A model generated the notes under the pieces. The model had not been told where the DNA came from, did not search any database, and was given only the letters and a program-made list of their open reading frames with translations. A stretch of 32,650 nucleotides of DNA from Candidatus Omnitrophota bacterium (GTDB lineage Bacteria > Omnitrophota > Gorgyraeia > Gygaellales > JAMWCP01), in contig JAMWCP010000006.1 of NCBI GenBank assembly GCA_023819665.1, forward strand, positions 1 through 32,650. The letters run 5' to 3'. Positions 22,893-25,932 of the stretch are shown piece by piece. The translations under genes were made by a program, and so were the position numbers. How positions within the stretch are numbered: the stretch's first letter is position 1; every line of letters starts with the position of its first letter.

Positions 22893-24167
22893 CTATTTAA
22901 ACTTATTTATAACTAAACCGGAAATAACTTTTGGATAAAAATAAGTACTTTTAGGAGGTAAACAAAATCCTTCCGAAGCAATCGCGATAATTTCTTCTAT
23001 CTTTATTGGATTTAATAAAAATACCGCACTGTTTTTATCCTCGTTTGCCTGAACAATCAATTTATCTATATCTATATCAAAATAAACTTTTTCTTTGTCT
23101 TCGGCATCTATACTTAAAGTCTCTTTGAGGATAAGGTGATTCAATATTGAAATACCTAATCTACGATAATGCCCAGGCTTATCTTTCATTATATTATCAA
23201 GAATAGTAAAACTCTTCAAATATAAAATAAAATAACGCTTGTTTTTGTATAACCCCAACACCGGTCTACGTAAGCCTGCTTTCTGTAAATACAAAAGGAA
23301 ACTATGTTTCTCTCTTATCTCCTCCAGTTCAAAATACTCTTTCAATTTATTCTTAAATGCTTCGTCAGAAAGATTAATATCTTTTACCAAACGATGAACT
23401 GGTAAGATTGAAAGACCGCGCGATTCTATGTTAGTAAAATAAGTCATAATATAATCGTAATCACGTTGTACAGATTCACTAATACCCTCTTTTTCTCTTT
23501 GATATCTACGGTAAGTAATCGCTACTTCATAACGATGATGCCCATCAGCAATAAATATATCCGTATCCATAATAGACTTCTGGACAAAATCCAAAAGAGA
23601 AGGATCATCTATTCTCCACACTTTATGCAAAATTCCTACCCCATCATTAAGTTGAACAAAAGGTTGATGTTGACTGATATATTGCTCATAAAGCCGTGCG
23701 AGCAATCTGTGTTTATCTTTAAACAAAACAAATATAGGACTGAGATTTGCCTTTACTGCCTCTAAAAGACGAAAACGATCCTCTTTAGGCTCTATCTTAG
23801 TATGCTCATGAGAAAAAATACGTTGATTTTCATCTAAATTTAAAAGAGATATAAAACCCAAACGGGTCTTCTTTTCTCCTTTAATTTTATATTCTTGAAG
23901 ATAAAAATAGATACAACTGGTTTCATCTTGGATAAGTATCTGCTCATCCAACCAGCAACGAAAATATTCTGCTGCCTTTGTGTATTTATCTTCCCCGGGA
24001 ATATCTTTTGTTAGAATTAAACGAATCATATTATATGGGCTTAAGTTATAATAGAATTCCTGTTGGGTAGTATCTATAACATCATATGGAGGGCATACTA
24101 CTTTGGATATGTCGGGTATCTTTTGAGGATTATAGAAAAATGCACGAAATGGTTTTATCTTAGCCAT
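22893..24167 (-). CDS. DUF1015 family protein
   Basis: A 424-residue protein of the widespread DUF1015 family, whose function is not established. Diagnostic segments are [20 protein letters not shown], then CPPYDVID at about residues 25-32, [14 protein letters not shown], the most conserved [20 protein letters not shown] near residue 205, and [22 protein letters not shown]. It is soluble with no signal peptide. It begins 13 bases before the VanZ-like gene ends, so the two overlap, and it is followed five bases later by accD. I do not assign a reaction. Confidence 0.9.
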
Positions 24168-24508
24168 CGATAAAATCTAACTCCCATAAATATACCGATA
24201 CTATCAAGAAAAAAATCCAACCAAGAGAATTTCCTTCCTAAAACCCATAACTGATGCACTTCATCTGTAAAAGCATATAAGACAGAAGAAATAAAAGTAA
24301 CAAAAAAACTCTTTTTGACTATATCTCTAAAACTATTTATTATAGCGCGATCTAATAGTATTGCAAATATAAAATATACAACCAGATGATAGATTATATC
24401 TTGAAAAGAAAAAAATAGTGGTGTCTTATTTTGAGGGAGTGATGAAAAATAAAATATAATGTAAGCCCATATAAAAACTACTAGCCAATATCTTATAAAA
24501 CACTTAAT
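24155..24508 (-). CDS. VanZ-like family membrane protein with apparent AUU start
   Basis: Translating the 336-base gap between fmdB and the DUF1015 gene gives an unbroken 117-codon frame of the VanZ family. Family motifs are FIWAYIIFYFSSLP near the N-terminus, YHLVVYFIFAILL, and near the C-terminus LYAFTDEVHQLWVLGRKFSW followed by a DFFLDSIGIFMG membrane segment; four membrane helices are expected. No ATG, GTG or TTG precedes the first membrane segment. Instead AAAAAGGAG lies seven bases before ATT (24506-24508), which overlaps the fmdB stop. AUU initiation, known from infC, would give the right protein. Stop codon TAA is inside the start of the DUF1015 gene. Function in this family is mostly unknown. 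Confidence 0.85.
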   Translation of the reverse strand: MKCFIRYWLVVFIWAYIIFYFSSLPQNKTPLFFSFQDIIYHLVVYFIFAILLDRAIINSFRDIVKKSFFVTFISSVLYAFTDEVHQLWVLGRKFSWLDFFLDSIGIFMGVRFYRWLR

Positions 24509-24758
24509 CTTTATTCTCCTTTTTATCTATCTGTTCATTAGATACATTAGTAGTAGCTGTTGTTTTCTTATCTTCTTTTTTACGATAATCTGTGGCATAA
24601 AATCCCCGCCCTTTAAAAATAATTCCTGCACCACTACTAATCAATCTCTTAAGGGGCTTACCACATTGAGGACAGGTATCTTTAGCAGGCTCGGTTATAT
24701 ACTGAAAAAATTCAAAATGGCTTTCACAACCTGTACATAAATATTCATATGTAGGCAT
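24504..24758 (-). CDS. FmdB family zinc ribbon protein
   Basis: An 84-residue protein starting MPTYEYLCTGCESHFEFFQ, the FmdB (CxxC_CXXC_SSSS, PF09723) signature, with zinc ligands C8, C11, C29 and C32 and the conserved KRLISSGAGIIFKGRGFYAT. The tail after residue 60 is charged and likely disordered. FmdB was first described as a regulator candidate of formamidase, but the general role is unknown. It follows dnaJ by 19 bases; the ribosome binding site AGAGGAGAG precedes the ATG. Its stop overlaps the AUU of the VanZ-like gene. Confidence 0.93.
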   Translation of the reverse strand: MPTYEYLCTGCESHFEFFQYITEPAKDTCPQCGKPLKRLISSGAGIIFKGRGFYATDYRKKEDKKTTATTNVSNEQIDKKENKD

Positions 24759-24777: not shown

Positions 24778-25932
24778 CTATCTAAATACTTTTTTTATTT
24801 TATCAGAAAAACTTTCTGTCTTTAAATTCTCTCCAGAAGTACGTGCAAATTCTTCAATTAATCTACGTTGCTCAGAGGTAAGTTCTTTAGGGATAACCAC
24901 GTTTACCTTTACCAATTCATCACCGTATACTTTACGATGAAGATCAATTATACCTTTCCCTTTAAGTCTAAAAATTTTACCCGGTTGCGTCCCCGGCGGT
25001 ATTCTCATTTTAACCTTACCATTGAGCGTAGGAACATCGATCTCTGCACCTAATATAGCCTGGGTAAAGCTTATATCCACTTGAGTTAAAATATCATTGC
25101 CTTCCCTTTGAAAAAGAGGATGAGATTGAACCTCAATGATCACATAGAGATCTCCCCTCCCTAATTCTCCCTCTTCACCTTCACCTCGAATTCGTAATTG
25201 GGAACCCGTATCCACACCGGCAGGAATCTTTACTTTTATTTTACGGGTTACTTTGATTCTGGCTTCACCCTTACATTCGGGACAAGGATTCTGAATAATC
25301 TCTCCTTCCCCTCTACAGCGAGTACAGGTTTGACGGATCTGAAAAAAACCACTGGAAGTTACCGTATAACCTCTTCCTGCGCACTTAGAACAGGTGGTTT
25401 TTTTACTGCCCGGTCTTACCCCTGTTCCATTACAGTTAGAGCAGAGTTCATAACGGGGAATATTCACAGTTTTCTCTGTACCAAAAGCTGCTTCTTCTAA
25501 GCTTATACTCAAGGTGATTTCTAAATCTCTTCCCCGACGTCCTCCTCGCGTAGACCGCGTTTTTGAACCAAAAATATCAAAACCTAAATCCCCAAATATC
25601 TCATCAAATATACTCTTCCCAAAACCAAAATCTGCTAAATCCTCAAATACACTAGCAAAATCCACACCTTTAAATATATCTTCATAAGCATAGCGTTGAT
25701 CAATTCCTGCATGTCCATATTGATCATAGAGTGCGCGTTTTTGGGGATCAGAAAGTACCGCATATGCCTCAGAGATCTCCTTAAATTTTTCTTCTGCCTC
25801 TTTTTTCTGCTCTGCAGGCACTCTATCAGGATGGTATCGCAAAGCAAGTTCCCGATACGCCCTTTTTATCTCATCAAGGGTAGCGCTTTTTTTAATCCCT
25901 CAAATCTCATAATAATCGCGCTTAGTCGCCAT
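24778..25932 (-). CDS. dnaJ: Chaperone DnaJ with an in-frame UGA at codon 11
   Basis: Co-chaperone that delivers clients to DnaK and stimulates its ATPase. From ATG at 25930-25932 the reading is [10 protein letters not shown], then TGA (25900-25902), then [20 protein letters not shown] and RYHPD, so the family's YYEILG has Leu replaced by a stop; one base change from TTA would explain it. Beyond it all is intact: HPD, a G/F region near residues 80-110, four CxxCxGxG repeats ([32 protein letters not shown]) and the C-terminal domains, 384 codons in all, the usual length. The open frame proper begins with TTG at 25842 and would lack helices I and most of II of the J-domain. It is six bases after dnaK. 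Confidence 0.9.

Follow-up and report, generated by a model that had tools for sequence, protein, structure and literature searches.

The window, that is the whole stretch of 32,650 nucleotides analyzed here from contig JAMWCP010000006.1 of a Candidatus Omnitrophota bacterium, carries on its minus strand the genes hrcA, grpE, dnaK, dnaJ, fmdB and vanZ, followed by a DUF1015 gene, an accD-like gene and the gene for an ABC ATPase. Pfam profiles identified grpE, hrcA, fmdB, the DUF1015 gene, the carboxyl transferase and the ATPase; dnaK was recognized from the translation of its open reading frame and dnaJ by PF00226. The gene upstream of vanZ (24504..24758, minus strand), present in the ORF list, encodes an FmdB-type zinc-ribbon protein of 84 aa (PF09723, E 4.4e-14). 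Its stop codon TAA (24506-24504) shares a single base, 24506, with the ATT triplet from which vanZ is read (gATTAA); an overlap of the two had been stated in a preliminary description of this DNA. Downstream, the DUF1015 gene (22893..24167, minus strand; PF06245, E 7.5e-83) begins with an ATG located within the last codons of vanZ. The overlap between the vanZ stop and the DUF1015 start measures 13 bases (24155-24167, minus strand) and is kept in G001, a genome from another genus and, next to the window genome, the second of the two members of the family in our collection; vanZ is hence linked into the operon at both ends. The gene order dnaJ-fmdB-vanZ-DUF1015 is common to both genomes.

The vanZ-family gene spans 24155..24508 on the minus strand. 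It reads ATT AAG TGT TTT ATA AGA TAT TGG and onwards to a TAA, with 117 sense codons. The deduced protein scored above the cut-offs of both Pfam VanZ (PF04892; E 5.4e-10, 40.4 bits, cut-off 30.1) and NCBIfam vanZ_1 (NF037970; E 1.6e-15, 57.7 bits, cut-off 20), which bears out the earlier claim of an open frame with VanZ motifs. Residues 8-116 cover positions 2-125 of the 126 positions of the PF04892 profile. The ortholog in G001, with a protein identity of 57%, also exceeds both cut-offs (41.4 bits for PF04892 and 53.8 bits for vanZ_1). Eight residues (D37, H41, D82, E83, H85, Q86, D98 and D102) are invariant across 12 aligned sequences. VanZ has been placed in the Lipocone superfamily, and a DxxxD motif in H4 together with RKxxH in H2 are given for VanZ-2 in that study (PMC12419801). 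The window gene resembles the Lipocone VanZ families in its profile match and in the DxxxD of the last helix, present as D98 and D102 and likewise invariant in the 12-sequence alignment. It differs from VanZ-2 in H2, where the protein reads DIIYH (DILYH in G001); since RKxxH is absent, it is kept out of VanZ-2. The motif is present in the VanZ proteins of several relatives from the order. The same study proposes that VanZ enzymes cleave head groups from lipid-linked precursors of the cell wall or of polysaccharides (PMC12419801). No glycopeptide-resistance gene was found among the vanZ neighbors checked, and nothing observed here suggests glycopeptide resistance.

The earliest ATG, GTG or TTG in the vanZ frame is a GTG at codon 84 (24259-24257), within the conserved TDEVHQ/DEVHQ motif, in agreement with the preliminary description, which had found no such codon before the first membrane helix. 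A start at this GTG would cost most of the VanZ membrane domain including the first helix. Residues 1 to about 27 are hydrophobic and the first membrane helix is complete only if the frame is read from about the AUU (24506..24508, minus strand). In the upstream direction the frame is bounded by a TAG seven codons 5' of the ATT, followed by ATA AAA AGG AGA ATA AAG and then the ATT itself, and a start inside fmdB, which the preliminary description had named as evidence against AUU, is thus ruled out in the window genome. A Shine-Dalgarno sequence AAGGAG (24516..24521, minus strand) lies, exactly as had been described, seven bases before the ATT; the spacer reads AATAAAG. At the equivalent position G001 has AAAAAGGGAG, and the 16S 3' end with the anti-Shine-Dalgarno is GGATCACCTCCTT in both genomes. 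On this strand of the window, 2.1% of the 2776 ATH triplets are preceded by AGGAG, GGAGG or GGGAG at a distance of 4-9 bases; the conservation in G001 is a stronger argument than this chance rate. A further candidate, the GTG at 24503-24501, was rejected: it opens a different reading frame of only about 25 codons and has no counterpart in G001. The ORF list (ATG, GTG or TTG starts, at least 60 aa) holds no entry for the vanZ frame. The gap between fmdB and the DUF1015 gene (24168-24503) measures 336 bases, as noted earlier, and gene callers restricted to these three codons would miss vanZ.

Initiation at another near-cognate codon, either the AUA at 24514-24512 or a codon further 3' than the AUU, is improbable. 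The AUA lies in frame two codons 5' of the AUU, and at the aligned start of infC in the order AUA is found more often than any other codon (19 of 29 loci, see below), which would speak in its favor, but it stands one base past AGGAG, too close for Shine-Dalgarno pairing, and is AAA in G001.

Comparison of the orthologous starts, advised in the preliminary description, gave ATT in the nearest relative in our collection; at greater distance, in families f2 and f4, the aligned codon is ATG. The fmdB/vanZ junction of G001 reads AAAAAGGGAGAAAAAGATTAG, with the Shine-Dalgarno sequence upstream, ATT at the aligned codon and an fmdB stop TAG which shares its T with the start (gATTAG). Accordingly, AUU and the one-base overlap of stop and start (ATTAA/ATTAG) are kept in two of two family genomes, a single pair of genera. 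G001 has in-frame GTG and ATG codons 30-33 codons 5' of its ATT, inside fmdB, and these could serve as a start there, though not in the window genome; they are poor evidence for a start, because the stretch encodes GFYATD, common to both FmdB proteins. Across the order, VanZ matches were found in 76 of 128 genomes (78 matches in all), of which 75 were examined; the three set aside are a pair of incomplete matches in G052 and a match in G024 that touches the edge of its contig. Two distant relatives from the scan of the genome contigs were not used. A canonical start (ATG, GTG or TTG) within 25 codons upstream of a conserved Trp is present in 73 of the 75 loci, and in 52 of 75 it lies six to nine codons from that Trp. 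The window gene and its G001 ortholog are the two exceptions; outside the family, all 73 loci have a canonical start near the aligned position. In G002 and G009, an ATG occupies the exact codon that is ATT in the window, counted from the Trp, and N-termini such as MKKFFSLW and MRRFFSLW begin at the aligned codon. The ATG seven codons before the Trp marks this as a start position in use among relatives, and ATT there is peculiar to the family of the window genome. The ATG in f2 and f4 is as expected if AUU were the derived state of this family. In three of the f2 and f4 loci (L004, L008 and L010), the place of the ATT is taken by an ATGA in which the vanZ ATG and the fmdB stop overlap, and the reading register from fmdB to vanZ differs by one base from that in the window family.

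The same loci bear on the alternative that ribosomes shift by +1 as they approach the fmdB stop, which would yield an FmdB-VanZ fusion and dispense with a separate vanZ start. The vanZ frame is indeed +1 relative to fmdB, and with its Shine-Dalgarno-like sequence ahead of GAU UAR the arrangement resembles the layout of the prfB frameshift site. In prfB, however, the Shine-Dalgarno sequence is located three bases before the shift codon, as opposed to six bases before the GAU codon here, and the tRNA on GAU, the final sense codon, would need to slip onto AUU, presumably a poor fit. No fmdB-vanZ fusion was found in 44 loci with a same-strand fmdB, in addition to the canonical vanZ starts near the conserved Trp in 73 of 75 loci, and we consider a frameshift very improbable.

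The coding stretch itself is under purifying selection. Between the window gene and G001, differences at codon positions 1, 2 and 3 amount to 35, 20 and 52, respectively, and the Nei-Gojobori estimates are dN 0.29 and dS 0.95 overall; restricted to aligned codons 1-82 they are dN 0.25 and dS 1.07. The ratio dN/dS is therefore about 0.23-0.30. The values for codons 1-82 show that the stretch preceding the GTG is selected as protein. In the alignment of the fmdB tails of both genomes, the last bases, comprising Shine-Dalgarno sequence and start, are conserved and the preceding bases are not, as expected if this end served vanZ initiation; the ATT bases are also part of the fmdB codons GAT TAR, and some of the conservation could stem from fmdB. 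Loss of the start codon in a pseudogene undergoing decay would account for the missing canonical start, and the gene can evidently be lost: 52 of the 128 order genomes gave no match, hence vanZ is dispensable in many relatives. Yet the frame is open in both genera, the core residues are invariant and the Shine-Dalgarno sequence is kept in both, and together with the dN/dS ratio this renders decay very improbable. A sequencing or assembly error concealing an ATG, for which a second suspicious site in the contig (a TGA that interrupts the sole DnaJ-domain match of the genome) might be quoted, is scarcely credible given this ratio, the ATT at the aligned codon of a separate genome, and the fact that an ATG would abolish the fmdB stop in both genomes.

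Taken as a whole, the observations are best explained by a real, conserved gene for a VanZ-family membrane protein with translation from the AUU at 24508-24506, a reading that upholds the preliminary description and to which we assign a probability of about 0.83. It is probably an easily overlooked gene with a low-level product. In the mechanism we envisage, a ribosome finishing fmdB, or a fresh 30S subunit, would be retained by the AAGGAG located seven bases 5' of the AUU, where the initiator tRNA would start vanZ. Output of vanZ is expected to be low, IF3-sensitive and linked to the translation of fmdB. Such coupling and IF3 sensitivity would be in keeping with the single shared base, the Shine-Dalgarno sequence and the apparent ATC and ATA starts of infC in the two genomes (see below). 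RNA folding predicted for the surroundings of the vanZ start was indistinguishable from shuffles (z -0.25), so the coupling derives no support from a special RNA structure.

The overlap with fmdB offers a possible reason for the persistence of the AUU. All stop codons begin with T, and in the fmdB stop this T doubles as the third base of the vanZ start. As long as the fmdB stop is kept, the vanZ start must therefore end in T and cannot be ATG, GTG or TTG. Without that stop, fmdB would extend through mostly hydrophobic codons to another one that stands 26 codons further on in the window genome as well as in G001. The overlap would in this way lock the AUU, excluding codons ending in G unless fmdB is extended by 26 codons. 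The sequence itself imposes this constraint; our inference is that AUU persists on account of it. The fuller proposal, in which the register admits only a T-ending codon, AUU with a strong Shine-Dalgarno sequence was kept by selection, and vanZ became a lasting, IF3-sensitive, fmdB-coupled gene of low output, is tentative and, in all its parts together, rather doubtful. The overlap does provide a simple, structural and testable reason why an AUU start can persist. If register locking holds true, other operons may contain genes in the same register which are invisible to callers limited to ATG, GTG and TTG.

The translation initiation factor gene infC was found in 54 of 58 genomes. Of 30 infC loci, 29 were parsed, the start codon being taken as the codon six before the alignment motif and the counts being read from the aligned rows. 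At this position AUA occurs in 19, AUU in 9 and AUC in 1 of the 29 loci, mostly after a strong Shine-Dalgarno sequence; an automated tally, in which four loci were scored at a codon two positions further 5', gave 18/10/1. In 5 of the 29 loci there is no canonical codon within 30 codons upstream, which leaves little alternative to near-cognate initiation. In 22 of the 29 loci a GTG stands in frame three codons 5' of the aligned start, mostly inside the Shine-Dalgarno stretch; it was not taken as the start. The window genome (L051) and G001 have apparent infC starts ATC and ATA, respectively, after a strong Shine-Dalgarno sequence, and both carry this earlier GTG within the Shine-Dalgarno stretch. 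The lineage thus appears to use AUH starts at infC. The infC genes of E. coli and Streptomyces start at AUU and ATC, respectively, and IF3 rejects such a codon, whereby translation becomes IF3-sensitive in E. coli (PMC5472188). In E. coli, excess IF3 lowers re-initiation, and less so in the presence of a Shine-Dalgarno sequence (PMC2268962). By analogy, IF3 sensitivity of the window vanZ is plausible.

With these infC genes, vanZ would share an AUH start behind a Shine-Dalgarno sequence (PMC5472188). It differs in that its start overlaps an upstream stop and, as vanZ does not encode IF3, no autoregulatory loop would result. Few bacterial AUU starts are documented outside infC, among them those of pcnB, Borrelia pncA and cvfC1, and the window vanZ is, judged by sequence, a candidate member of this small class. 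E. coli pcnB, a chromosomal gene other than infC, is reported to be limited by an AUU start, as vanZ would be; it encodes a different protein. Staphylococcus aureus cvfC1 is likewise a small gene with a strong Shine-Dalgarno sequence, and its AUU is conserved among staphylococci; in poor medium a reporter with this AUU reached about 10% of what AUG gave. In contrast to vanZ, cvfC1 is the first gene of its operon, encodes a potential zinc-finger protein and had its initiation mapped by experiment (PMC13009471). The AUU start of Borrelia burgdorferi pncA (bbe22) was missed by databases, as would be expected for that of vanZ, but pncA had been annotated in a shortened form, not wholly missed, and its structure is solved (PMC13398362). 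Streptomyces sigR provides a conserved non-canonical start outside infC as a control point; it differs by its GTC/GTT start and by an IF3 repression shown experimentally (PMC5472188). No VanZ gene with an AUU start was found in a literature search that covered few subscription journals. To the documented cases the window vanZ would add an AUU kept in two genera of an uncultured family, at a stop-start overlap that bars codons ending in G.

Within the genome, AUU starts are rare as far as a codon-usage scan can see. The scan covered 217,262 bases, or about 17.5% of the genome (20 whole contigs, one stretch of 6 kb and the window), and requires a coding stretch of at least 30 codons before the first canonical start, which makes it blind to infC-like cases. 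It returned five candidates, with family support for vanZ only; of the other four, one runs off a contig end and three are short and weakly scored. The vanZ start is thus the sole convincing case and a rarity in the 217 kb examined, not the rule.

A minor observation concerns the nearby dnaJ of the window genome, which has an in-frame TGA early in the gene (25901-25899, minus strand) at a point where the frame is open in G001. This gene is the genome's only DnaJ-domain match, and in the ORF listing DnaJ begins late, from a TTG at 25842. The TGA may have arisen in assembly, be a mutation of the strain or have another origin.
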